Below are positions 1,687 through 22,419 of a DNA stretch of 33,880 bases, piece by piece. The notes under the pieces are model-generated. The model was not told where the DNA came from and ran no database searches. It saw only the letters and a list, made by a program, of their open reading frames with translations. Numbering within the stretch: position 1 is the first letter of the stretch; the number at the start of each line of letters is the position of its first letter. The stretch comes from a virus. The position numbers and the translations under genes were made by a program. The stretch spans positions 1-33,880 of IMG/VR virus record IMGVR_UViG_3300024273_001578. One strand, written 5' to 3'.

Positions 1687-2643
1687 TTAATTTATTTTAT
1701 TGAAAATCCATCCAATTGTATTTGCTGTTTTTTCATTTATTATTTTTTTATTTGGAGGTAACGATACTGGTTGATTACTGTTTGTATATTTTCTTATAAG
1801 TGAAATATTAAAATTAAATTCATTAACAATTTTATGTAATCCTTCTCTATTTAATCTTTCTCCTGCTGGACTTATAAGTTCATATACATCTCCAGGTTTT
1901 TTCTTTCTATTTTTCATCTTCTCAATAAACTCAGGATCGGACCATTGTTTTTTCATAGACAAACTTGCCTTCTCTCGTTTTATTGGATCTTTATTGACAT
2001 CATTCATTTTAGACTTAAACTCGTTAAATTTTTCAGGTGGCATGTTTTTATATTTTAAAAATGCTCTCCTAGAAGATTCTTCCGGATTTTCTTCTAAATA
2101 TTGTTTCATTTGATTACTCTTCCACTCTTTTAATTCATCTGTCCATATTTCTTTATTTATATTGCATCTTTCTTGATATTGTTCATCTGTGAGTTTATCC
2201 CATCCCTTCTTTGCTCTTCTGCCTTGTTCTTCTGGCGATAATCCTTTCATATATTCTGAATGTGCTTTTTTCCATTGTTCATACACTTCTTTATTATTTT
2301 TAAGACTTTCCCATCCTTTTTTAGATGCAATACTTAATAACTCACCATTCTTTGCCACATCAGATTTCATAAAATTCAAAGTTCTACCATATTTTCTAAA
2401 GTTATATGCTTCAAATAATAATTCATGTGCCTTGATATGATCCTCATATTTTAATTTGACTATATTCCAATCTTCATTTATATGTTCATTATATGTTACT
2501 CTTGGTAAAATATGATGTTTTTCAGTATATGCATCACCATTATATTCATATCCGGTGATAAAATCTAAATACTCTATTAATTTATCAATAGAATCAGGTA
2601 TGCCATCTTTTTGTATAAATAGATTATAAATGAATGCTTTCAT
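1687..2643 (-). CDS. HNH homing endonuclease inserted in the uvsW region
   Basis: An HNH nuclease core is visible at residues 40-75: TEKHHILPR (His43/His44), Asn60 in DWNIVKL, and DHIKAHELL (His69, His73). Residues 90-245 are a string of charged, Trp-containing helical units (KKGWDKL, KEIWTDEL, KKQWSDPEF) of the kind that bind DNA in phage HNH enzymes. Residues 250-310 (VYELISPAGERLNREGLHKI) resemble the NUMOD1/helix-turn-helix tail of these enzymes. It sits between two pieces of the helicase gene and has its own promoter-like box and start-codon hairpin, the usual marks of a mobile gene. It is 318 residues long and looks intact. It ends 5 bases before the ATG of the next helicase piece. Confidence 0.85.
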   Translation of the reverse strand: MKAFIYNLFIQKDGIPDSIDKLIEYLDFITGYEYNGDAYTEKHHILPRVTYNEHINEDWNIVKLKYEDHIKAHELLFEAYNFRKYGRTLNFMKSDVAKNGELLSIASKKGWESLKNNKEVYEQWKKAHSEYMKGLSPEEQGRRAKKGWDKLTDEQYQERCNINKEIWTDELKEWKSNQMKQYLEENPEESSRRAFLKYKNMPPEKFNEFKSKMNDVNKDPIKREKASLSMKKQWSDPEFIEKMKNRKKKPGDVYELISPAGERLNREGLHKIVNEFNFNISLIRKYTNSNQPVSLPPNKKIINEKTANTIGWIFNKIN

Positions 2644-2644
2644 A

Positions 2645-2716
2645 TTACATAAATGTTTTTATTATATATCTATAAAATTTTACGAATATATCAGTAAAGA
2701 AAGAAATTTAATGTAA
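2645..2716 (-). promoter_or_regulatory. Promoter box inside an inverted repeat before the HNH gene
   Basis: The minus-strand box ATAGATATATAAT is at 2673-2661. The flanking arms are TTACATTAAAT (2716-2706) and ATTTATGTAA (2654-2645), pairing over 10 bases with one bulged base. The 3' arm ends one base before the ATG at 2643. The 5' arm overlaps the stop codon of the preceding helicase fragment. Read-through RNA could fold over the start; RNA begun at the box would lack the 5' arm. Confidence 0.55.
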
Positions 2717-2860
2717 ATTTATCCATTCATCACATACATCATCATCACATGTAATGTCCCTTGCCTTCTTTTGAGTTCCATCTGATAAATTTACAAGAGT
2801 ACTCTGAGTAACTTTAATTTCTTTATCACCAAATGTAATTATAGTATATGGATCTGCTGA
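2708..2860 (-). other. Second intein-like N-terminal segment, short, without a visible partner
   Basis: After the helicase residues EEYKKKMEA comes SADPYTIITFGDKEIK and then STLVNLSDGTQKKARDIT and CDDDV. The pattern V-x-L-x-D-G-x4-A-x-D-I-x3-D-D-V is the block A shape of Hint/intein domains, close to the DGTKKKICEVKEGDWV of the first intein. The piece is about 50 residues, stops at CDEWINLH, and has no block B (TxxH). The first residue could be Ser211 or Ala212. The downstream helicase piece has no intein C-half, so this is likely a decayed or atypically split intein. Confidence 0.5.
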
Positions 2861-3490
2861 AGCTTCCATTTTCTTTTTATACTCTTCCCTAATATCAGAT
2901 GCAGTTCCACCATCAACATAGAATACTCTCTTATTGGTTTCCTGTCTGAGTTTCTCATAAAGTCTTTGGCCATGTTCAATTCTATGAAAAAGTACCAGTG
3001 AATTTCTTGGAACTCTACCTATTACACTTGAAATAAAATCAAGTCTTGCAGCATTATTTATTACAAAGTTTTGCTCCAATGCAAAAACATCCTTGTTTTC
3101 ATATCGGTTTTGTGCCAATTCCATTAGGGCTGTTTTTTGTTTGTCAGTCGCATAGTCCATTTCAATTACTTTAACAGCACACTTTGCAATGTGACCCTCA
3201 TCTTGTAAGAAACTTGCCTTAACCTCCGCAATTACAGGCCCAGTTTGACTCATTAATGTTAATTTGTCAAGTGTACCATCTTTTGGAATTGTACCTGAAA
3301 GTCCAAATCTATATTTGGCATTAGTACATTTTTGTAAGATTGTTTTAATACTTGCTGATTTTGCTTTGTGGCAGTTAGACACGTTTAGATCATTTGCAAA
3401 GTAGTTATGATTTAAACCATCTTCTGATTTTATTCTAAGATTATAAACATCACCACTATAATCTATTTTATTAATCTTTTTAATTTTCAT
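2708..3490 (-). CDS. uvsW: Split-intein C-half fused to the middle part of UvsW helicase
   Basis: Residues 1-39 are an intein C-half ending NYFANDLNVSN, followed by Cys40 as the +1 nucleophile. From CHKAKSASIKTIL the helicase resumes directly after the DE of its DExH box: motif III (FGLSGTIPKDG, residues 62-72), motif IV (NSLVLFHRIEHG, 163-174) and VFYVDGGT (189-196). T4 UvsW aligns through the same points (DECH, FGLSGSLRDG, FVMFKHVSHG, YYVSGE). The start overlaps the end of the endonuclease gene upstream by 11 bases. Splicing with the partner at 4505-5488 would restore a continuous helicase through motif IV. From about residue 211 the helicase is lost and a second intein-like start appears (separate entry), then a stop. 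Confidence 0.88.
   Translation of the reverse strand: MKIKKINKIDYSGDVYNLRIKSEDGLNHNYFANDLNVSNCHKAKSASIKTILQKCTNAKYRFGLSGTIPKDGTLDKLTLMSQTGPVIAEVKASFLQDEGHIAKCAVKVIEMDYATDKQKTALMELAQNRYENKDVFALEQNFVINNAARLDFISSVIGRVPRNSLVLFHRIEHGQRLYEKLRQETNKRVFYVDGGTASDIREEYKKKMEASADPYTIITFGDKEIKVTQSTLVNLSDGTQKKARDITCDDDVCDEWINLH
3374..3490 (-). other. Split intein C-half (IntC) in uvsW
   Basis: 39 codons. Blocks F and G are visible: VYNLRIKSEDGLNHNYFAND and LNVSN, with terminal Asn39 and Cys40 as the first C-extein residue. The penultimate residue is Ser rather than the common His. Its length and the early in-frame ATG (MKIKKINK) are typical of naturally split phage inteins. The partner is the N-half at 4798-4505. 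Confidence 0.9.
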
Positions 3491-4445
3491 TGAATTGTGA
3501 TAATAATCTTTTTAATCTGTTTTCTTCAGGTTGTCCATTTAGTAAACTTTCATTATAGTTACATTTAAACCAATCGTCATTTATTTCAATATACTCATAA
3601 TTATTTGAAGAAGCCCATTTGATTGCAGCTTCTCTTTTAATTGTGTTTATTTCATTATTAGATTCTGAATTTGGCTTTATTTCGTATATAACTTTATTTT
3701 CCATATCTATAAAATCAATAATATAATTTCGCCATTCATTTTTATAATTATATGGAACTCTTAATTTTTCATATTTGCAACCTTTATTATATAATTGAAA
3801 ATATGCTTCCCATGATGACCTTAGTTTTATATCTTTTCCTTCTATTGATATAATACATCTACTCCTAGCCCATGAATTTGTTATATTTGGCGTAAAAGTT
3901 CCTTCAGCTATCATCTTTTTTATTCTTTTGCCATTTTCAACACCTATTCTTTTCCTAACATCATCAGATACTTTATGAAAGTTATTTTTATCACCTTCCA
4001 TATTAAATGACCGCCAATTGTGTAAGCAACTATTAGAACAAAATTTATAATATCCATGTGTAAATGAATCAAATTTGGATTCATTTGAACATTCTACATT
4101 TGAGCAAGAGATAGGACCTTTGAGATAATCATATAAATCCTTCCAAGATAATATATTACTGATTTCTATGTTAAAATGATAGTCATTAATCATTTTAGCG
4201 ATTCTTGTAGATTCACTCAAATTAACAATAGTGTTAAATTTAAAAATATTATCCGAAATGAATTTATAAATTTCATCTTTACCTTTTAAAGATTCAGTAT
4301 GCTTAATGATATTATTTCTTTTATCTCTTTTAATTTTATTCTTACTTGGTTCATTTTTTTTCCAATCATAGTGACATGATTGGCTACAAAATCTTTTTTG
4401 CTTAGGTTTTAACGCATTGTTACAATTATTGTTTTTACATTTCAT
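3480..4445 (-). CDS. Free-standing zinc-finger PD-(D/E)XK (Vsr-like) homing endonuclease between the intein halves
   Basis: Two CX4C...CX3C zinc-ribbon-like motifs (Cys3/8/20/24 and Cys114/119/136/140) come first. A C-terminal nuclease-like domain follows: RSSWEAYF (Glu213), YEKLRVPYNY (Glu226), then YIIDFID (Asp244) and YEIKP (Glu255, Lys257), the D...ExK core. This matches the free-standing Vsr/EDxHD-type endonucleases reported between split-intein gene halves in environmental phage sequences (the fractured genes described by Dassa and colleagues, 2009). It presumably spreads the gene break by cutting uninterrupted uvsW; that is inference. It has its own promoter-like box and start-codon hairpin, starts 59 bases after the stop of the upstream half and overlaps the downstream half by 11 bases. 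Assignment to the exact family is from motif shape only. Confidence 0.78.
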   Translation of the reverse strand: MKCKNNNCNNALKPKQKRFCSQSCHYDWKKNEPSKNKIKRDKRNNIIKHTESLKGKDEIYKFISDNIFKFNTIVNLSESTRIAKMINDYHFNIEISNILSWKDLYDYLKGPISCSNVECSNESKFDSFTHGYYKFCSNSCLHNWRSFNMEGDKNNFHKVSDDVRKRIGVENGKRIKKMIAEGTFTPNITNSWARSRCIISIEGKDIKLRSSWEAYFQLYNKGCKYEKLRVPYNYKNEWRNYIIDFIDMENKVIYEIKPNSESNNEINTIKREAAIKWASSNNYEYIEINDDWFKCNYNESLLNGQPEENRLKRLLSQFNEN

Positions 4446-4446
4446 A

Positions 4447-4484
4447 TTTAATAGATGTGGTCTTTATATTATATATCTATTAAA
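4447..4484 (-). promoter_or_regulatory. Promoter box overlapping a perfect 10-base inverted repeat before the Vsr-like endonuclease
   Basis: The arms TTTAATAGAT (minus strand, 4484-4475) and ATCTATTAAA (4456-4447) pair perfectly around an 18-base loop. The 3' arm ends one base before the ATG at 4445. The box ATAGATATATAAT (4480-4468) overlaps the 5' arm and loop, so RNA started a few bases downstream of the box would carry only the 3' arm and leave the start open. Confidence 0.7.
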
Positions 4485-4504
4485 CACACAGAAATTAGTC
4501 AATT

Positions 4505-4798
4505 TTAATTAAAATTTAATATATCATCATTCTCTGTTAATTCGTCAACCCTCTTGTAAATACCATTTGAAAGTTTAACTTTATGATTGCCTGTTATTTT
4601 GATAGTTGAACCGTCTTCCATTTCAATTTCAAACATTTGATTACCTTGTGATAGGTTTTTATAAACGAAATCAACCTGTCTATCTTCAACTTTAAGATTA
4701 TTATCATTAGTTGTTTTGACCCAATCACCTTCTTTAACTTCACATATTTTCTTTTTGGTGCCATCTGTCATTATAATTAGACTATCAGGATGTAGACA
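4505..4798 (-). other. Split intein N-half (IntN) in uvsW
   Basis: 97 codons. Block A begins with Cys1 (CLHPDSLIIMTDGTKKKI) and has GDWV. Block B is ITGNHKVKL with the T-x-N-H arrangement, preceded by FEIEMEDG. The half ends after VDELTENDDILNFN, where a natural split intein would be cut. Its length matches known phage IntN pieces. Insertion in the DExH box fits the habit of inteins to sit in active sites. Confidence 0.92.
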
Positions 4799-5488
4799 CT
4801 CATCAACAACTACTGCGTCAAACTCTTCAAAGTATTCTTTGTCCTTTTTGATTAGCGATTGGTAAGTACCTATCACTATATTTTTATTGGACTTAATTTT
4901 TTGTCCAGCAAAAATCTGTTGAATTCTTAAGTCAATTCTATTTCTAAAGTTATAGTCATGAAAATCCTCGTGTGCTTGTACTACTAATGAAACGTTAGGC
5001 ACTATAAATAATATCTTCTCTGCAGTTCCCTTCTCTAACATGTAAGATATTGTAAGAAAACTGATTAGGGTCTTACCAGCGGATGTTGCAAGCTCTGCAA
5101 GACACTTTCTAAATTTTAATATATTATATGCAGCTTCTACTTGGTAGTCCCTAGGAGTTATCTTAGAACCCTCAAACAATTCATAAGCCCATGCCTCAAA
5201 TGTTTCTGCATTTATATCTGGGTCTATTAATCTTTTAATTCCGTTGATCTTTAATTCAAAACGATAGTCCTTACATATTCCCATCACATATCGCCATAAA
5301 CCTGCTGGAATCCATTTATCATCTTTAATATAAGATACGTAGCCATCCCACACACCTCTTTTGACTAAAGGATTAAATCTCCAAGAGTCAATTCGTTTTG
5401 TTAAAGAAATTCTAATCTGCTCTAACTCAAGCTCAGTTGATTCATCAATTCTTAAAAATTGATTGTCTTCTGTTAATGTTAAAATCAA
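4505..5488 (-). CDS. uvsW: UvsW-type helicase N-terminal fragment fused to split-intein N-half
   Basis: Residues 1-230 match the start of T4 UvsW. The N-terminal domain has WRFNPLVKRGVWDGYV (T4: YRFNPRFRYGNWDGRI). Motif I is ATSAGKT (residues 134-140), motif Ia FIVPNVSLVVQ (161-171) and the DExH box VVVDE (226-230). At residue 231, between Glu and Cys-His of DECH, an intein N-half begins (CLHPDSLIIMTDG) and runs to the stop at residue 327. The start codon is TTG; an in-frame TGA two codons upstream rules out a longer protein, and the alignment with T4 supports this start. It follows uvsY by 17 bases, as part of the primase-uvsY-uvsW block. Activity needs trans-splicing with the fragment at 2708-3490. 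Confidence 0.9.
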   Translation of the reverse strand: MILTLTEDNQFLRIDESTELELEQIRISLTKRIDSWRFNPLVKRGVWDGYVSYIKDDKWIPAGLWRYVMGICKDYRFELKINGIKRLIDPDINAETFEAWAYELFEGSKITPRDYQVEAAYNILKFRKCLAELATSAGKTLISFLTISYMLEKGTAEKILFIVPNVSLVVQAHEDFHDYNFRNRIDLRIQQIFAGQKIKSNKNIVIGTYQSLIKKDKEYFEEFDAVVVDECLHPDSLIIMTDGTKKKICEVKEGDWVKTTNDNNLKVEDRQVDFVYKNLSQGNQMFEIEMEDGSTIKITGNHKVKLSNGIYKRVDELTENDDILNFN

Positions 5489-5505
5489 ATCTCATATGAT
5501 CTTTT

Positions 5506-5934
5506 TTATAACTTGCTAATATCAAGGCGATTCTTTATTGCAAAGCCCATATTATCAAGTGTTTTTATAGATCCCTCTATAAAACCTTTTTGAGTCTGTA
5601 ATAACTCAAGGATTTGTGTGTCATCTGCAATATCTGCTTCGACAAACTTTTCGCGCATCTTATCGGTAAGTTTATAGTCAAAGCTATAATACTCAATCCA
5701 CTTATTTTTGTATTTAATATCTACTGTTGCTTTTTGGGATTTGATGCGGTTTCCCATGGTAGCTAAGTTCTCTACTAATATTTGACGATAACTTAAAGTA
5801 TAAGCACTAACCTCTTCCAGGTTATTACCTAACTTTAATTGTTCAGTCAATCCCTTTATTTTAGAAGTCCAATCCTCTCTCTGCTTGCTTAAGTAATCGT
5901 CAAGCTGTTTAATTTTGTCTTTTGAATCTGACAT
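5506..5934 (-). CDS. uvsY: UvsY-like recombination mediator
   Basis: This 142-residue protein is close to T4 UvsY (137). The C-terminal half follows the UvsY pattern: an aromatic KWIEYYSFDYKLTDKMREKF stretch, a run ending TQILELLQTQKGFIE, and the close MGFAIKNRLDI (T4: RGFAIKHIQDM). UvsY loads UvsX recombinase onto DNA coated with gp32. Both gp32 and UvsW are encoded nearby, and in T4 uvsY also lies next to uvsW, which supports the call. It is mostly charged helix with no signal or membrane segment. The start ATG is 10 bases after the small gene upstream. Identity rests on length, pattern and context, as overall similarity is low. Confidence 0.75.
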   Translation of the reverse strand: MSDSKDKIKQLDDYLSKQREDWTSKIKGLTEQLKLGNNLEEVSAYTLSYRQILVENLATMGNRIKSQKATVDIKYKNKWIEYYSFDYKLTDKMREKFVEADIADDTQILELLQTQKGFIEGSIKTLDNMGFAIKNRLDISKL

Positions 5935-5944
5935 ATAAATTGTT

Positions 5945-6163
5945 TTAAAACAATGAGTTTCCTTTTTTGTTGTCTTTAATGTACACTGAACTTTTAAACT
6001 TCGCCTTTAATTTAGGCTTAGTAACTATAAATTCCTTGCCCTCGTGGGAAATATTAGCAGATGAAAAATCAATAATCATCTTTAAATTCTTTCTCTTGCT
6101 TCTTTCGTTTTCAAAGTCCTCGAACTGCTCGTCGATCATTTGTAAAAAATCTTTTTTTATCAT
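5945..6163 (-). CDS. Small basic protein of unknown function
   Basis: 72 residues, rich in Lys. It begins MIKKDFLQMIDEQFEDFENE, helical and acidic, followed by a beta-like basic half (GKEFIVTKPKLKAKFKSSVY). The ATG overlaps the primase stop by four bases (ATGA), so the two are probably translated together. I do not recognise a family. Its place between primase and uvsY suggests a replication or recombination accessory role, which is only an inference. Confidence 0.7.
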   Translation of the reverse strand: MIKKDFLQMIDEQFEDFENERSKRKNLKMIIDFSSANISHEGKEFIVTKPKLKAKFKSSVYIKDNKKGNSLF

Positions 6164-7290
6164 AAGTGATATGCATCAAGTTTTGAGTTAGTAAAATAAT
6201 CTGTCAACTTTGATAAGCATTTATTCTTTGTTAGCCATGCAGCTATAACCAAATCATTTAAATCACCTATTTGTTTAGGATATTTATCTCTATTATTTTG
6301 ATCTGTATTTTTTAGATACAATTCCCATTCCCTTTCGATCTTTGTTTCATTAAGAAACTTTTCCCATATAAATATCTTTCTACCTCTTCTAAGTTTCTCC
6401 ATCATCTTCTTTTTACCGGTATCATCATTATCAAACATGTACCTAATGGTGGGAATTTCATCGAACTCTTCTGTAGATCGACCTGCTGTTGCAAGTCCAA
6501 TTGAGTTTGGAATAAACATGGAATCGATAGGACCCTCGAACATAGTAACATCTCTTTCGAAATCTACCATCATTACACCAAATATTGTTGAAACTTTCTT
6601 AACACTTACTAATTCTTCGTCAGATAATATAAGTTCCTTTTCAGCCTCTTCATATATTTTTGCAAGGTCATACGTAAGGTATCTTGAATTTGCCTTTTTA
6701 ACCAATGATCTGGTTTGAAATCCAATAACTTTATCCTTTGGTGCTAGATTAAGAACAACAATTCTTTTGTCTTTTGGAGAATACATAAACATATCTAATT
6801 TTCCTGACAATAATCTATTGCGTAAATAAAAGAATGCTGGATCTCCTGCTTCGATCTCTTTAAAACCAAACCATTCTTTAAGTTCAGTTCGTGTTGGTGC
6901 CAAATCATATGCTAATTTAAATACATCATGTTCCAAAACTTCAACATTGGTAGTTTCCATCTTATGCTCTTGAATATAATCAATGATTTGAATGGAATCA
7001 TCTGTACTTTGAAATTTTACATGATGTTCTTTAAGAAGTTGATATGCATTTGAATGTTCTCCACAATTAAAACAGTGGTATTGCAGAGTGTCCCAATATA
7101 GATTACCACGTTTCTTTTTATGGTCAGTACTTGAGTCACCACAAAATGGACACGCAAAAACTATTCTACCCGGCATTTCTTTAACCATTTGTTTTGTAGA
7201 TTCATTATGTGCTTTAACAATAACTTCCTTTACTAAACTTCTGATTTTATTCTTTAATTCCTCATCTATTTTTATTTTTTCCATTTGCAT
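6160..7290 (-). CDS. 61: gp61-like DNA primase
   Basis: A zinc-binding primase start is clear: ACPFCGDS with Cys47/Cys50, then YHCFNCGEHSN with Cys73/Cys76, as in T4 gp61 (RCPVCGDS...HCYNCNYH). A TOPRIM-like core follows: VTMFEGPIDSMFIP (T4: VYVLEGPIDSLFIE) and RYMFDNDDTGKKKM with the acidic cluster. Length 376 compared with 342 in T4. The enzyme makes RNA primers for the lagging strand with the gp41-type helicase, which is not in this window. The start overlaps the end of the GIY-YIG gene by 19 bases. A second ATG lies two codons downstream, so the start could be 7290 or 7284. It is likely cotranscribed with the 72-residue gene, uvsY and uvsW. Confidence 0.9.
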   Translation of the reverse strand: MQMEKIKIDEELKNKIRSLVKEVIVKAHNESTKQMVKEMPGRIVFACPFCGDSSTDHKKKRGNLYWDTLQYHCFNCGEHSNAYQLLKEHHVKFQSTDDSIQIIDYIQEHKMETTNVEVLEHDVFKLAYDLAPTRTELKEWFGFKEIEAGDPAFFYLRNRLLSGKLDMFMYSPKDKRIVVLNLAPKDKVIGFQTRSLVKKANSRYLTYDLAKIYEEAEKELILSDEELVSVKKVSTIFGVMMVDFERDVTMFEGPIDSMFIPNSIGLATAGRSTEEFDEIPTIRYMFDNDDTGKKKMMEKLRRGRKIFIWEKFLNETKIEREWELYLKNTDQNNRDKYPKQIGDLNDLVIAAWLTKNKCLSKLTDYFTNSKLDAYHL

Positions 7291-7997
7291 TTTTCAAAAT
7301 GATAGCGATTCATATTATGTTTACCTATTTTATTGCAATATGGGCAGATTGTTTCATTATAGATTCTATTTGATGCTGATATTGACATTTTAATTTTAGT
7401 TTCTTCGCTTCTTTTTATTCCTAGTAATGAATCTGATAATTTATTTTTAGTTGAATCTTTTAAATTTTTTCCATAGTTTGGATTGTTTGTTCCTAACTTA
7501 GATTCTTTACATTTTTGTATAGTTTCTTGAGTATGTTTTCTGCCAGTCCATGTTTTTTTAGCAGTATTAGACATTTTTTCAAAAAATATTGGATCTTTCC
7601 ATTTTTGTTTTATCCGTTCCATTATATGATTGCGGTATTCTGGATCTTTCCAATTATTCTTGGCTGAGTTAGACATTTTTATTTTAATTTCCAGAATATT
7701 AGGATTATTTGTTAAACTATCACCCCATTCTCCTCCACTTGTTATATTGTAGCCTATTGTTCTATCAATTGAATTATAATATAAAATCCAGTATTTTTCT
7801 AATTCACATAATATTTCTTTGGTAGGTATATCATCTACAATTATCTCTTTAGTAAATTTTTCTTTACCATATTTGGAAATAGCGTTTCTAATTAGTGTGC
7901 CAGATCCATAATAATCGATAGATTTATCTACTTCCTTTGTAGATAATCCAATATAAATTTTACCATTAATTGAGTTGGTTGTTTTATAAATGTACAT
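7272..7997 (-). CDS. GIY-YIG homing endonuclease between genes 32 and 61
   Basis: The GIY-YIG nuclease domain occupies residues 1-90: YIYKTTN and KIYIGLST (the YIG at 15-17), the catalytic-type Glu in CELEKYWILYYN, and GYNITSGG. The middle has repeated Asn/Lys-rich NUMOD3-type units (NPNYGKNLKDSTKNKLSDSL). The end is a zinc finger, Cys218/Cys221/His233/Cys237. T4 has the GIY-YIG enzyme SegG next to gene 32, where it causes marker exclusion, so the position is comparable. The gene has its own promoter-like box inside a long inverted repeat. It overlaps the primase start by 19 bases, a sign of precise insertion or of later trimming. Confidence 0.88.
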   Translation of the reverse strand: MYIYKTTNSINGKIYIGLSTKEVDKSIDYYGSGTLIRNAISKYGKEKFTKEIIVDDIPTKEILCELEKYWILYYNSIDRTIGYNITSGGEWGDSLTNNPNILEIKIKMSNSAKNNWKDPEYRNHIMERIKQKWKDPIFFEKMSNTAKKTWTGRKHTQETIQKCKESKLGTNNPNYGKNLKDSTKNKLSDSLLGIKRSEETKIKMSISASNRIYNETICPYCNKIGKHNMNRYHFEKCKWKK

Positions 7998-7998
7998 T

Positions 7999-8116
7999 TT
8001 GAATATATTTTATTTAGTTTGGTCATATTATATATCCATGTAATTATTTAAAGGTCCACTATGAAGATTATTTTAGTGACCAAACTAAATAAATATTCAA
8101 TGTAAGTGGACCTTTA
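7999..8116 (-). promoter_or_regulatory. Promoter and interleaved inverted repeats controlling the GIY-YIG start
   Basis: The box GGATATATAAT (minus strand, 8037-8027) lies just upstream of arm A (8025-7999), which ends one base before the ATG. Its partner A' is at 8100-8077. They pair over 16 perfect bases, a 3-base bulge and 8 more. A second repeat, AGTGGACCTTTA (8105-8116) with TAAAGGTCCACT (8049-8060), 12 perfect bases, is interleaved in the order B'-A'-B-A. Read-through RNA could hide the start through A'-A, or free it if B'-B traps A' in its loop. RNA begun at the box has neither A' nor B'. Confidence 0.75.
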
Positions 8117-8120
8117 TATA

Positions 8121-8151
8121 AAGAAAATGGGCCAAGTTTACACCTGACCCA
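8121..8151 (-). terminator. Intrinsic terminator after gene 32
   Basis: On the minus strand the stem TGGGTCA (8151-8145) pairs with TGGCCCA (8134-8128) over 7 bases with one G-U pair and a 10-base loop, followed by TTTTCTT (8127-8121). It starts 24 bases after the gp32 stop codon and is one of the few GC-rich spots in the window. Confidence 0.8.
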
Positions 8152-8174
8152 CTCTATTTAACTATGTGTTAAGA

Positions 8175-9101
8175 TTAAACTCCTAAGTCATTTAAGAAAT
8201 CATCCAAATCATCTGCATCGCTAGAAGCATCCGGGTTTGTGGTCATTTCTGTTGGAAATTCAAAATCTCCTGAACCTGCTGGTACAGCTGCTTGTTCAGT
8301 TTTAGCGGCTGGTTTTTTAGCGGCTGGTCTTGAGACAACTGAGTCCATTGAATCTCCTGGATTTAAGTAGTTTCTTAGGATACTATTTACGAAATCTCTT
8401 GTTTCGGCATCCCATGCTTTGTATTCATATGGTTCCAATGAAGGTGCTGCATCTAATTCAGATTTGATAGTTGCCATTACTTCTTTAGTTCTTTCTGCTG
8501 GAGAACCTGCCATATCAATTGCACTTGTTGAAGATGAGAATTTCGATTTATCGTAGTTGTTGAAGTCACCTTGTCTTGAGATAATCAATTCAAAGTTTTT
8601 ACCTGCAAATAGGTCAAATACTTGAGTTGGTTCACCAAATGCTGGCTTCAATTCTTCGTCAATTTTTTCTTTGATTTTATAACCAAATTTGAAGATTTTG
8701 TATTGTCCTTCTAAATCTGGGTTTTGAGGATCTTTAATAACTTTAACTAGAGCGAAGTACTGCTCACGTCTTTTAAGTTTATCACTCATTTTTCTATCCA
8801 CTGCTGAATCACTTTTACGTAATTTGAAAAATACATCTGCAATTGGACATTTCTCGCCTACTGTTGAAGGAGAATCTACCATTTTACCATCACCACTTGC
8901 ATTTGTAAGCCAGTGTACGTATTTTTTTACTAAAGAGTTTCTTGGATTTGCTGGGTTTGGAACAAAACGAATAATTGCTTTGTATGTTCCGTCTTTACCA
9001 TCATCTGCTGTTGGTTTGTAAAGATCGCTTCCTGATGAAGCTGTTGTTTCATGTGTGTCTACGTCTGCCACACCTAAGTTAAAAATGTCAAAATCTGCCA
9101 T
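8175..9101 (-). CDS. 32: gp32-like single-stranded DNA-binding protein
   Basis: 308 residues compared with 301 in T4. The core shows FVPNPANPRNSLVKKYVHWL (45-64), then a Lys/Arg/aromatic-rich DNA-binding region (RREQYFALVKVIKDPQNPDL, 111-130) and KNFELIISRQGDFNNYDKSKF. The C-terminus is the expected acidic tail (DADDLDDFLNDLG), which in T4 gp32 contacts partner proteins; an Ala/Lys/Pro linker precedes it. The protein coats single strands in replication and recombination and works with primase and UvsY encoded downstream. T4 gp32 binds zinc through one His and three Cys; here only His63 and Cys85 remain in that region, so the zinc site seems lost. The gene has its own promoter-like box and leader, and a terminator follows it. 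Confidence 0.9.
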   Translation of the reverse strand: MADFDIFNLGVADVDTHETTASSGSDLYKPTADDGKDGTYKAIIRFVPNPANPRNSLVKKYVHWLTNASGDGKMVDSPSTVGEKCPIADVFFKLRKSDSAVDRKMSDKLKRREQYFALVKVIKDPQNPDLEGQYKIFKFGYKIKEKIDEELKPAFGEPTQVFDLFAGKNFELIISRQGDFNNYDKSKFSSSTSAIDMAGSPAERTKEVMATIKSELDAAPSLEPYEYKAWDAETRDFVNSILRNYLNPGDSMDSVVSRPAAKKPAAKTEQAAVPAGSGDFEFPTEMTTNPDASSDADDLDDFLNDLGV

Positions 9102-9159
9102 GTCTTAAATACTTTAATTTTGTTAATACTTTAAATTGTTTATCTGTTAATTATATACT
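9102..9159 (-). promoter_or_regulatory. Promoter-like box and A/U-rich repeat leader of gene 32
   Basis: The box AGTATATAAT is at 9159-9150 on the minus strand. The leader to the ATG at 9101 has almost no G or C and contains a perfect direct repeat TTAAAGTATT (9134-9125 and 9117-9108). T4 gp32 represses its own mRNA by binding an unstructured leader with UUAAA-type repeats, so this leader may be the operator. That is inferred by analogy. Confidence 0.5.
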
Positions 9160-9175
9160 GATATCTGGAAATGTT

Positions 9176-9355
9176 TCAACGATTCATAGTTAAAATAGCA
9201 CCTGATTCATCTTTATATTGTTTGTCATCTATCTTTGATAGACCTGATTTAGCGAGTAGGATTTCTTTTTCTTGTTCAGAAATTTCACCTAACTTGACTA
9301 ATTTACTTAGAGCTTTATAAAAACTAAAGTGATCAGTTGTGTTAAAAGAATTCAT
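9176..9355 (-). CDS. 59-residue protein upstream of gene 32
   Basis: ATG at 9355, TGA at 9178-9176. The protein starts MNSFNTTDHFSFYKALSKLV, continues KLGEISEQEKEILLAKSGLS and ends ILTMNR. It is helical and charged with no membrane segment and is not recognised. Support for a real gene comes from a strong promoter-like box 31 bases upstream, placement in the 74-base-leader gap before gene 32, and good coding character. In T4 the small late coactivator gene 33 and gene 59 lie upstream of 32, but I see no convincing likeness to either. Confidence 0.6.
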   Translation of the reverse strand: MNSFNTTDHFSFYKALSKLVKLGEISEQEKEILLAKSGLSKIDDKQYKDESGAILTMNR

Positions 9356-9385
9356 CTATGATACATTTTAAATATTAGTACATGT

Positions 9386-9398
9386 ATTATATATCTCT
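9386..9398 (-). promoter_or_regulatory. Promoter-like box before the 59-residue gene and gene 32
   Basis: The minus strand reads AGAGATATATAAT, one of the best matches to the shared box, with its end 31 bases upstream of the ATG at 9355. An 8-base inverted repeat (9405-9398 and 9374-9367) brackets it, but that repeat has a TTTAAA core and could be chance. Confidence 0.55.
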
Positions 9399-9562
9399 AT
9401 TTAAATTTGTTTCAAGACTATTTTAAATTCTTTTTAGTGTGTACTTGAAAACTATTTTAAATTATTTTCAGTAATGCTGAAACAATCCAGTACCCTGACA
9501 ATATAACTTATGTCTTTAAGCCTGAGGGTAAAATAAGGTTCTTGCTAGATGATTTAAGAAAT
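9399..9562 (-). other. Intergenic stretch with a direct repeat and possible RNA folds
   Basis: No supported gene. A direct repeat of 19 bases with 17 matches lies at 9411-9429 and 9445-9463 (shared core CTATTTTAAATT on the plus strand). Next to it is a perfect 6-base hairpin with a 5-base loop, TTTCAG/CTGAAA at 9466-9471 and 9477-9482. Further on, TACCCT and AGGGTA pair across a 29-base loop at about 9492-9532. It may be the 3' untranslated region of the endonuclease gene, a small RNA, or remains of a gene displaced by insertion. Confidence 0.45.
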
Positions 9563-10279
9563 TCAAGGTCTCTTTTTACAATTATTAAAATGGCATCTGG
9601 TCATGTTACCTCCACTTCCTTTAAGATTACAATGTGGACATGTTCTTTGGATATACTTAAAACCTGTAAGTGCTTTTGAAATATTATTACAGTGTTCTTT
9701 TGTTTTTTCTTTATTAGTAAGAGACTTTGATAATTTATTTCTAGATTCAATTGACATGATTTGTCCTTTACTGGATTCTGACATTTTTTTCTTAGTACTT
9801 TCAGAATGAGTACTACCCTTTTTAGAGTTAGATAATTTATTTCTAGATGAATCTGGCATAATATATCCTTTCCTTGCCTTAGATATATTATTCTTATGCT
9901 CTTTAGTTAAAGTTTTACATTTACCGATATTGGATAATAGTTTTTTTGTAGATTCGCTACATGGTACTCCTGCTCTATCAAATCCAGTTGAAGTTTGGTT
10001 ATATTTATTATAAAATGATGGATTAATTTTTACATTAAATTTTTTATGTAATTTTATTTCTAATAAAATAGCATCATTTCTATTTTCAAATGTTGAAATT
10101 ATTTTCAATTTATAATTATATGGATTTTGCTTAAAATCATTTTTAAATTCTAAATCAGTTGAACTAGTAAAATATTTAATTCCTAAATCTAATTCAGGTT
10201 TTATAGATGAGCTTCTCATCCCATAATAATGTTTATTCTCTATAAGAGATGTAATCCGGTACACATAATGATATAACAT
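9563..10279 (-). CDS. GIY-YIG homing endonuclease downstream of the resolvase gene
   Basis: The GIY-YIG domain is at residues 1-95: YVYRIT (5-10) and HYYGMRSSS (17-25), a Glu in ILLEIKLHKKF, and an Asn-rich end. Residues 105-205 are four tandem NUMOD3-type units built on SRNKLS or STKK motifs (ESTKKLLSNIGK, SSRNKLSNSKKG, STKKKMSESSKG, SRNKLSKS). The tail is a zinc finger, Cys214/Cys217/His230/Cys234, of the same form as in the GIY-YIG enzyme at 7272-7997, so the two are related. It sits between the resolvase and the gene 32 group without breaking a recognisable gene, so it looks free-standing rather than intron-encoded. Its start lies behind an inverted repeat. Confidence 0.88.
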   Translation of the reverse strand: MLYHYVYRITSLIENKHYYGMRSSSIKPELDLGIKYFTSSTDLEFKNDFKQNPYNYKLKIISTFENRNDAILLEIKLHKKFNVKINPSFYNKYNQTSTGFDRAGVPCSESTKKLLSNIGKCKTLTKEHKNNISKARKGYIMPDSSRNKLSNSKKGSTHSESTKKKMSESSKGQIMSIESRNKLSKSLTNKEKTKEHCNNISKALTGFKYIQRTCPHCNLKGSGGNMTRCHFNNCKKRP

Positions 10280-10282
10280 AAT

Positions 10283-10334
10283 AATTAGTCTATTTTTAAA
10301 AATAATATAAGTAATCTAACAGACTAATTGTTAG
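10283..10334 (-). promoter_or_regulatory. Inverted repeats over the start of the second GIY-YIG gene
   Basis: AATTAGTCT (minus strand, 10329-10321) and AGACTAATT (10291-10283) pair perfectly; the 3' arm ends 3 bases before the ATG at 10279. The loop contains CTTATATTAT, one base away from the TATATAAT core. A second hairpin, CTAACA/TGTTAG at 10334-10316, holds ATTAGTC as its loop, so the two structures compete or form a pseudoknot. Confidence 0.55.
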
Positions 10335-10363
10335 AGTGGTTTCGAACCCATTGTCCTTATATT

Positions 10364-10376
10364 ATTTATATATCTT
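10364..10376 (-). promoter_or_regulatory. Promoter-like box at the 3' end of the resolvase gene
   Basis: The minus strand reads AAGATATATAAAT, overlapping the stop codon of the resolvase gene and 85 bases upstream of the GIY-YIG ATG. It fits the shared box, although part of it codes for the terminal Lys-Asp-Ile. Confidence 0.4.
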
Positions 10377-11032: not shown

Positions 11033-11401
11033 TTATAATTTTTTACCAAGAGAAGCACCTAATGCGGCGCCAACTAATCTTGAAGTTAACATATCATACA
11101 TTACGCCTGAAGTAATTCCAAGAATATTTGCAATTGTTTTACCTACAGTTTTTCCAAGTGCAAAACCTGCAAGTCCACCAAAAATACTTCCTAAAACACC
11201 TTCATTAGTAAGTTCATTATTAAAAGATTCAACATTGTAAGTTCCATCTTCATTTTTATAAGTTGATGTAAACTCTGCGATTGCAGCATCCACCTTTGCC
11301 TCTAATTCATCGGTCCACTCAGTTTGAAGTGACTCAGTTAAAATAGCAAACTCATTATCTGTAACGTCCTGCTCTTTAATATAATCTATAAATGTTTTCA
11401 T
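11033..11401 (-). CDS. Small protein with a glycine-zipper-like hydrophobic half
   Basis: 122 residues. The first 65 are charged and helical (MKTFIDYIKEQDVTDNEF). The rest is hydrophobic with regularly spaced small residues: GSIFGGLAGFALGKTVGKTI and RLVGAALGASLGKKL. Such glycine zippers occur in membrane-active or membrane-inserted proteins, so a membrane-associated role (head or injection protein, or lysis accessory) is possible. No family is recognised. It lies between the tail-tube-like gene (12 bases upstream) and the resolvase gene (one base). Confidence 0.7.
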   Translation of the reverse strand: MKTFIDYIKEQDVTDNEFAILTESLQTEWTDELEAKVDAAIAEFTSTYKNEDGTYNVESFNNELTNEGVLGSIFGGLAGFALGKTVGKTIANILGITSGVMYDMLTSRLVGAALGASLGKKL

Positions 11402-20800: not shown

Positions 20801-22361
20801 ACTCTGCGTTATCAACATGAATAAAGTCCACTAAATTAAGATTGTAAATCCCAATAGCATTCTGTCTTCTTCTATTACCTGCAGAATAATCTTCAATCAC
20901 AACAGAAGTTCCATCCACACTTGTTTTATATGTCACTATCTCTCCATTTCTAATAGAAGCAGAAATTGCCATAGCAATTTGCTGTAAGCTTCCTTGGTTA
21001 GAAAACTTATTACCATTTGCTCTTCCTGGTAAAATTGATCCATCAGCTATTATAGCATAATCCCCTAAATTATATTGAGAAATCTCTAATTCGGTTTTAT
21101 CACAGATAAAAATTCTATCATTATTTGATGGAACCTGTGTTACTGTTATTTTAACAAAACCTCTAGGGTTTGGAGTATCTTTTAAAGCAACAATGCTTTT
21201 TCCATTCTTTGCAAATCCAATAAATTTATCAGCTCCAACTGTGTTGGCTGCAATTATCAATTTATTGTATGGTAAATTACTAACACCCTTTAAATTATAA
21301 AAAGAACCCTCTTTGTCCTTTACCCATTTTAATTGGGGAATAGCAAAATCAGACTCCAATGGAAACATATTAAGATGAGTAGTTCCTGCTGAATCTACAT
21401 CATATATTGTCGTATAACTATCCTCATTAACATTAATAATTCCTGACGATGTCATACCTTCGCTTGAAAAATAACCTTCATCGATTGCATCTGCATAAAT
21501 ACCAAAGTATCTATATATTTTATAATCATCTGCTCTGTCATCGTCAAATAAGAATTCCAAGTTAATAATATTCGCAATTGCAATTTGATTTCTCTCAAAT
21601 CCCTGTGTGATAATTTCGTTACTAAAAATCTCAGGGTAATCTACCTGTGTGTAGTATTTATCAAGCTGTTCTGCCTTGCTTGCAAATCCACCGTTTGCAA
21701 GATCTATTCCATTAAACGTGGATTGGGATCCTTCGTTAAAATTTATGGAAAGCGCAGAAATAGGAAACATTTTATCGTTAACATAATTGTTTAAGTATTT
21801 TCCAATGTTTGAATTTTTACTTAAATCAAATGTCTTAACAATAGTTGCGTTTTTAAGAAGCTCATTGATTCTATTATTCTGTCCTTTTACATTTTCTTCG
21901 TACTGTGCAGAATAATCGGTATCTTCGATTCTATATATAATAAAATTAGTTGGTATTTTCTTTTCTAACCAAATTGGAGCAAATATCCTGTATTGTTCAT
22001 CATACAATTTTGTAGTATTATGTATAGCGCCATATTGATACTGGTCCTCATATTGAAATTTATAGTCTGAGAAAACAGTAATATCGGAAGTTTCTCGTAG
22101 GGTTTGATACTTTTCAGTAGAAGGAAGACCTCTATAGAATGCAGCAACGTCATCAGCATAACTTTCATTAGCTGATAACTGGTATTTTTGATATTCAATT
22201 CGTGAAAGTTCTTTGTTTGCTCTAAATGAACTTAAAAAGATTTCCCCAGTTGAATCAACCAATAACTTTACATTACTGGTTAACTTCGGGTTTGTTCTTA
22301 AAAGAGCAAATGATTTATCATCTATTGAACCGTTTGCAATATTAGTATTAATTGTAGCCAT
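17895..22361 (-). CDS. Very large tail/baseplate structural protein, 1488 residues
   Basis: The largest gene in the window. It begins MATINTNIANGSIDDKSFAL. The sequence is an even mixture of beta-rich and helical parts with many Asp, Asn, Tyr and Ile residues and few Cys. I see no signal peptide, membrane helix, peptidase or glycosidase motif. Its position after the wedge genes and directly before the collar fibres is where T4 has genes 10, 11 and 12, so a baseplate periphery or fibre-carrier role is likely by position only. A promoter-like box inside a hairpin lies just upstream, so it and the collar fibres may be transcribed separately from the wedge genes. Confidence 0.8.
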   Translation of the reverse strand: MATINTNIANGSIDDKSFALLRTNPKLTSNVKLLVDSTGEIFLSSFRANKELSRIEYQKYQLSANESYADDVAAFYRGLPSTEKYQTLRETSDITVFSDYKFQYEDQYQYGAIHNTTKLYDEQYRIFAPIWLEKKIPTNFIIYRIEDTDYSAQYEENVKGQNNRINELLKNATIVKTFDLSKNSNIGKYLNNYVNDKMFPISALSINFNEGSQSTFNGIDLANGGFASKAEQLDKYYTQVDYPEIFSNEIITQGFERNQIAIANIINLEFLFDDDRADDYKIYRYFGIYADAIDEGYFSSEGMTSSGIINVNEDSYTTIYDVDSAGTTHLNMFPLESDFAIPQLKWVKDKEGSFYNLKGVSNLPYNKLIIAANTVGADKFIGFAKNGKSIVALKDTPNPRGFVKITVTQVPSNNDRIFICDKTELEISQYNLGDYAIIADGSILPGRANGNKFSNQGSLQQIAMAISASIRNGEIVTYKTSVDGTSVVIEDYSAGNRRRQNAIGIYNLNLVDFIHVDNAELNDIGLVDAIVPLTTNTVFSDWLIYTMTGGSIEGQCVLVDKKEIGNVSVGEWVKRKDTDNFIQIIEIEKDPFNLSLYRIILDTPVKLSNDNTFEVYERYVTSHGRFSAYDFKDFDFDFYSTRNSDLGDLVYGEHYVTIPPLVEGGTPSQELVDLSTFYDGLNSVLEAEKIDENINQAPIDNEYDRLNENQLKETAVLSRVVPTICKFELKNSSNARNLPYILNVNEAFGEDNLSPNIEISSQRKVEYMNMEHFHINKIPAAFYNDQINLNNYLDFADDGGITVDKLQDTSFDYFERHFNWNGYYVGVDDLWVDNTFKRLWSKFDTGNIERNASAVFRGLRYSYLRRKENTKDSPTEFISDSSVSDYKFGVVFNYNKVIDSEGNAITSNEIKVYSVKNDKFKFICVFIELNMVENDAEFLDRYLLYTLNDIEVGGEILDTNIPFFIDFSNSVASPSDSGEWVLNASQFSVLDGTAKFSEYVMVDNVGEYSWITFDAGGSTYGVKVISVVNDESVLIDGWPWLWDNLTNTIDVSETRLNPSQFSLIPINSVFTYIRGGSNGFGSILNEINAYNFAKRFNQSGDVNYITVTLNGDITLNDYVLTIESGADIIKPSLIRSETDPDRPKAYKLSSGEIGSVISERTDGGYITILRRMNGSYNPLFNSVITFSNTWNRNKVVPLQSYDVRYALMYNTFEGSSIAFDSHKLIDNGYGYINNYFFHKVNAEDSKNILKLSQTSDKPPLYPKIGEVAIDKKQINVFKSKYASDYFTKSLAGSLTELVNGTLSPVEKKTFLASTIMKVKNTYDITRYTSTEEASIESLDKVRLNKLNTESIHWYENEDQVVIDVYLVDAILTELIEDGISAKFKKYVKPENSFGDKTTLNDDLAIYSEYNIVPRFIIDNISIYGIEEKNITTYFYSTKYISELTDGGFKLLSNYNIQNYQNDGLSFRLIYNKRHGYSYNFKIHVKIQA

Positions 22362-22377
22362 GTATAGGACTCTTTTT

Positions 22378-22419
22378 GTTTAGATTATATATCCCATGTA
22401 TATTTGGGCTAATCTAAAC
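22378..22419 (-). promoter_or_regulatory. Promoter box within a strong hairpin before the 1488-residue gene
   Basis: The arms GTTTAGATTA (22419-22410 on the minus strand) and TAATCTAAAC (22387-22378) pair perfectly, with an inner CCCA/TGGG stem (22408-22405 with 22396-22393). The box TGGGATATATAAT (22396-22384) overlaps the 3' side of the hairpin. No U-run follows on the minus strand, so it is not a simple terminator. The 3' arm ends 16 bases before the ATG at 22361. Confidence 0.6.

Follow-up and report, generated by a model that had tools for sequence, protein, structure and literature searches.

The four endonuclease genes considered here lie among phage replication genes. The window, the whole stretch of DNA analysed (33,880 nucleotides; G+C 32%), comes from a T4-like phage, and almost all of its genes are on the minus strand. 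Relatives are found in 63 uncultured loci at 49–100%; among the named phages searched there is no near DNA match to the window, and the best-covering named phage record contains a primase match at 38% identity. An earlier note on this DNA had claimed that all four genes carry a start-codon hairpin with a promoter between or within its arms. This claim holds for HEG2 and HEG3 but not for HEG1, where the arms are at chance level, or for HEG4, where they belong to a pseudoknot.

The homing endonuclease genes HEG1, HEG2, HEG3 and HEG4 (starts at 2643, 4445, 7997 and 10279) encode nucleases of the HNH, PD-(D/E)XK-like, GIY-YIG and GIY-YIG types, respectively. HEG1 and HEG2 are inserted in uvsW, HEG3 lies between ssb and primase, and HEG4 is inserted in a ruvC-like gene, within its 3' end (Table 1). 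Profile searches provide family domain matches for HEG1, HEG3 and HEG4, while HEG2 is matched by phrog_15427 only; a search for HNH_3 (PF13392) across the relatives gave no match. The PD-(D/E)XK-like assignment of HEG2 rests on a sequence motif and on a partial AlphaFold model with the PD-(D/E)XK order of elements, for which the best fold hits, TnsA and I-Bth0305I, are non-significant (E 0.05–0.09).

Table 1. Positions of the endonuclease genes, promoter boxes and RNA elements in the window.
Feature	Positions	Strand	Basis
HEG1, HNH homing endonuclease gene	1687..2643	-	phrog_12434 2e-20, phrog_655 8e-14
HEG1 box GATATATAA, not enclosed by a significant hairpin	2662..2670	-	motif position, fold
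HEG2, PD-(D/E)XK-like endonuclease gene, between split-intein halves in uvsW	3480..4445	-	phrog_15427 3e-24; fold
HEG2 hairpin 3' arm, into AUG	4444..4456	-	fold
HEG2 box GATATATAA, overlaps 5' arm	4469..4477	-	motif position
HEG2 hairpin 5' arm	4475..4487	-	13 pairs, z -3.1
HEG3, GIY-YIG/NUMOD3 homing endonuclease gene	7272..7997	-	PF07460 2e-9, phrog_314 8e-40
HEG3 hairpin 3' arm, through AUG	7993..8025	-	fold
HEG3 box GATATATAA, in hairpin loop	8028..8036	-	motif position
HEG3 hairpin 5' arm	8077..8104	-	fold, 28 pairs, z -6.3
CTTTATATAA, what remains of the promoter-like site that immediately precedes primase in HEG3-less relatives	8114..8123	-	comparison
Terminator-like stem after ssb, kept in relatives without HEG3	8124..8155	-	terminator scan and comparison
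HEG4, GIY-YIG/NUMOD3 homing endonuclease gene, inserted in ruvC-like 3' end	9563..10279	-	profile searches
HEG4 pseudoknot strand GACTAAT before ATG (3' arm of the earlier note)	10284..10290	-	invariant in three sequences
HEG4 leader helix P1, 3' strand	10301..10311	-	comparison
HEG4 leader hairpin P3, loop 10328-10322 (5' arm of the earlier note)	10315..10335	-	one double compensatory change
HEG4 leader hairpin P2 (TGG/CCA)	10337..10350	-	one double compensatory change
HEG4 leader helix P1, 5' strand	10356..10366	-	one double compensatory and one G-U change
HEG4 box GATATATAA, upstream of both reported arms	10366..10374	-	motif position
GATATATAA box before large non-HEG gene (22361-17895)	22385..22393	-	arms around box in orthologs

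The motif GATATATAA, referred to below as the box, is found in seven copies in the window, all of them on the coding strand. In a related 234-kb contig (G003), 28 copies are sense (25 of them intergenic) and one is antisense, and the other genomes are alike. Genes downstream of the box in related contigs include those for tail sheath, tail tube and tail fibres, and most boxed genes are without assigned function. The box behaves as a late-type promoter, and its use would presumably fall late in infection. The spacing between box and AUG is exactly 3 nt in 15 of 106 cases and otherwise mostly 13–40 nt, with spacings of 5–12 nt nearly empty, and this pattern is not reproduced by scrambled motifs. 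The 3-nt class suggests leaderless late mRNA. Genes with the box exactly 3 nt before the ATG are seen at 11401 in the window and clade-wide.

Folding of the HEG3 start region gives a stem of 28 pairs (-28.6 kcal/mol), which none of 200 shuffles equals and which is longer than the earlier note had described. The HEG2 arms are also real, forming a stem of 13 pairs that reaches into the AUG and is matched by 2 of 200 shuffles. The boxes with 5' ends at 2670, 4477 and 8036 (HEG1–3) lie between the arms or overlap the 5' arm, as had been claimed, but at HEG4 the box is upstream of both. In the only ortholog of HEG2 (L101, 74% identical) the stem is retained (z -2.9); an A-U pair has replaced one G-C pair there, and the box has lost its G as a result. 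At HEG3, a competing fold is predicted in which an 11-bp pairing of AAAGGTCCACT with AGTGGACCTTT crosses the main stem, and RNA started at the promoter is still predicted to pair at 0.59. These two sequences form an inverted repeat at 8117-8107 and 8058-8048 (minus strand), and the two folds would be mutually exclusive or form a pseudoknot.

The surroundings of HEG3 suggest which RNA its hairpin may act upon. Relatives without HEG3 have the order ssb, terminator, TATATAA and primase start, and HEG3 has entered between the old promoter-like site and primase. Primase RNA would then have to traverse HEG3, and the hairpin at the HEG3 start would prevent synthesis of the nuclease from this RNA. Early read-through into HEG3 is plausible from gene orientation and from the position before primase.

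Different results are obtained at HEG1. The arms proposed for this gene are absent from the minimum-energy fold, and 64 of 200 shuffles are as good (z -0.36); the comparison with shuffled controls recommended in the earlier note favours HEG2 and HEG3 but not HEG1. The local-control p value is 0.45, and the HEG1 ortholog L029, in which the box lies 3 nt before the AUG, has no significant arms. HEG1 has the promoter only.

The uvsW gene that hosts HEG1 and HEG2 (5488-1336, minus strand) is broken into three parts. A split intein forms the first break, as uvsW1 ends DE/CLHPDSLI (intein N part) and uvsW2 begins NVSN/C (intein C part), with HEG2 between the halves, an arrangement that we take to be like the 'fractured genes' of the literature. 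At the second break (1690-1630, minus strand; L019, L029), conserved VIVASY codons run into UGA C, after which helicase coding continues in the +1 frame (DGTFSTG); there are few substitutions, those seen keep the VIVASY frame, and a programmed +1 frameshift is possible at this site. In L019, a box is located 3 nt before the ATG of that reading frame. The C-terminal tail of uvsW2 (2880-2708, minus strand) resembles the end of an intein N part minus its first block, as if it had been brought along by HEG1.

The HEG4 arms can pair as described earlier, but they are the loop and 3' strand of a pseudoknot in a larger conserved leader, which contains three helices besides this 7-bp pseudoknot. Three distinct sequences, the only ones found when further copies were sought, keep every one of its 28 pairs; they show three double compensatory changes, and two further changes involve G-U pairs. 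A search of Rfam gave no match. The only GATATATAA near HEG4 (10374-10366) shares bases with the ruvC stop and also with helix P1, of which it includes the first base. Through the insertion the ruvC-like gene has acquired a different C-terminus, whose end (KDI stop; 10366) falls in the promoter box, and the original ruvC 3' end directly follows the HEG4 stop (9563). Since the promoter is upstream of the leader, late RNA would keep the structure, and the mechanism proposed for a promoter inside a start-hiding hairpin, as at HEG2 and HEG3, does not apply to HEG4. The leader would be present in both kinds of RNA and is probably another translational control. A group I intron was rejected at this site based on the ruvC 3' end directly after the HEG stop, the shortness of the leader and the lack of an Rfam match, and no tRNA was found at the leader (GGGTTCGAA). 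The leader of T4 gene 32 (mentioned in PMC3014915) likewise places a pseudoknot ahead of the start in a phage mRNA; the HEG4 leader differs in preceding an endonuclease gene, in its extra helices and in having no known ligand.

The start hairpin was also evaluated as a property of the class across the clade. The boxed HEG groups beat their local upstream sequence (p<0.05) in 14 of 20 cases and ordinary boxed genes in 13 of 78 (Fisher 9e-6, this and the following p values being indicative, as the HEG groups are partly related and only partly independent). The equal rate before ordinary genes that the earlier note had named as evidence against its reading is not seen. Six of the 20 groups, HEG1 among them, are without this excess, and L053 (G020:21140) has neat arms directly flanking the box yet p 0.26. 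For the duplex of the promoter-to-start segment with the upstream 60 nt, the median z is -2.6 in 15 HEGs and 0.04 in 81 ordinary boxed genes (p 1e-5), and in the deduplicated test z<-2 is reached by 10/15 and 8/81, respectively. Pairing of the start region to upstream sequence is 0.585 in HEGs versus 0.203 in 1248 ordinary genes (p 1e-7). If the promoter-started RNA is assumed to begin 6 nt after the box, predicted start pairing falls from 0.75 on read-through RNA to 0.24 for HEGs, and from 0.52 to 0.31 for ordinary genes.

The arm sequences are unrelated between HEGs, examples being a perfect 18-pair stem at G006:43344 and an 18-pair stem including the AUG in L320, and the 3' arms adjoin or include the AUG in most cases. 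Pairing survives substitutions in HEG2/L101 and L300/L310, G-U pairs included, which favours an RNA function; the earlier note suggested seeking compensatory changes in relatives, and double ones are found in the HEG4 leader. Its statement that the device is common to three nuclease types likewise stands clade-wide, as GIY-YIG, HNH and PD-(D/E)XK-like HEGs share it with unrelated arms. This fits parallel selection, presumably for late-only expression.

The 13/78 ordinary boxed genes are above the 5% expected, and the hairpin device is not HEG-specific. Among 111 HEG relatives without the box in other phages there is no excess (median 0.20 versus 0.30 for neighbouring ORFs), which rules out a device intrinsic to the HEG families and indicates that it follows the promoter of the clade rather than the type of enzyme. 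The clearest user of the device outside the HEGs is a large gene (window 22361) of unassigned function that is conserved throughout the clade; in its orthologs the box is flanked by arms whose sequences change. Another boxed gene (G008:69892-70275, L180; G003:48024-48416, L120) encodes a small protein with a C-terminal hydrophobic stretch, and its start hairpin rivals that of the best HEG; family searches gave only a weak phrog_2990 hit and no support for a holin. Several GIY-YIG HEGs (G008:6178, G008:9218 and G005:9739) appear, from T-arm-like sequence upstream, to follow tRNA genes directly, with the AUG in a short stem.

For HEG2, HEG3 and most clade HEGs with the box, we consider a translation switch that depends on the site of transcription start to be likely. 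Read-through RNA from upstream host genes would carry both arms, and the hairpin would cover the start region or the AUG, so that the nuclease would not be made despite transcription of the operon. RNA begun at the late-type promoter, which lies in the loop or within the 5' arm, would lack the 5' arm, as the box positions at HEG2 and HEG3 predict, and its start would be open for translation.

Several other explanations of the repeats were weighed. AT-rich intergenic DNA could yield such repeats by chance before any gene, and both HEG1 and the ordinary boxed genes with p<0.05 agree with this, but the excess of HEG groups over local controls, the shuffling results for HEG3 and HEG2 and the pairing kept between relatives disfavour chance for the class and make it very unlikely. 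A role of the repeats in terminating transcription from the genes upstream is highly improbable: a terminator-like stem does exist between ssb and HEG3, but it is a separate element farther upstream that is present in relatives without HEG3, and at the arms themselves an AUG, not a T run, follows the 3' arms and a terminator scan finds none.

The repeats might instead be DNA operators, for example for endonuclease autorepression as reported for I-TevI, which binds an operator overlapping its own late promoter (PMC2988022). We regard this as quite unlikely as a replacement for the RNA switch, given that arms differ within one HEG family, that arm-arm and arm-box distances vary and that G-U pairs are kept, which is unexpected for the DNA site of a protein; an operator role could coexist with the switch. 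An effect of the stems on RNA stability or processing rather than translation initiation also appears unlikely. RNase E is reported to process the transcripts of T4 segB, segG and Aeh1 mobE (PMC2988022), but 3' arms at or over the AUG in most cases are in the natural position for initiation control.

The translation switch has precedents, as the earlier note had recognized. In T4 I-TevI, I-TevII, I-TevIII and segB and in Aeh1 mobE, a late promoter lies within a hairpin that sequesters the ribosome-binding site (PMC2988022), and T4 gene e, a non-HEG late gene, is silent on early RNA because a hairpin forms at its start, late promoters being located at the 5' strand of this hairpin (PMC3014915); the gene at 22361 is a parallel to it in the clade. 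Like their T4 and Aeh1 counterparts, the clade HEGs lie in host operons, with a predicted read-through hairpin that would hide the start and promoter RNA that would lack the 5' arm, and GIY-YIG and HNH families use the device in both settings. The promoter motif is GATATATAA in the clade and TATAAATA in T4. Unlike in T4 and Aeh1, a PD-(D/E)XK-like HEG is included and the device is predicted from sequence at most boxed HEGs. A further difference concerns what is hidden: SD-like (Shine-Dalgarno-like) motifs are depleted before the starts (42/1010 at -18 to -4 versus 136/1010 in a control interval), and what the clade stems would hide is accordingly the A-rich region around the start or the AUG, whereas T4 hairpins sequester a Shine-Dalgarno site.

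Within the literature searched, in which HEG coverage is incomplete, the apparent wide use of the device in a distant clade, where three types of nuclease gene have it, is new, as are the AUG-covering stems without a Shine-Dalgarno site, the apparently leaderless 3-nt class and the HEG4 pseudoknot. A broader reading, in which AUG-pairing stems silence read-through RNA without a Shine-Dalgarno site, 3-nt promoters yield leaderless late mRNA and the HEG4 leader represents a new class of regulatory pseudoknot RNA, is tentative and somewhat doubtful as a whole.

These results suggest that selfish endonuclease genes of a large, distant clade are commonly equipped with a trick first worked out for a handful of T4 genes. 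Each gene would have arms of its own, and the Shine-Dalgarno site on which the device was thought to act is missing. The GATATATAA motif may be used to read the expression programme of this uncultured clade. Some orthologs have the device and others lack it, which makes the question of why HEGs must be silent early testable by comparison.
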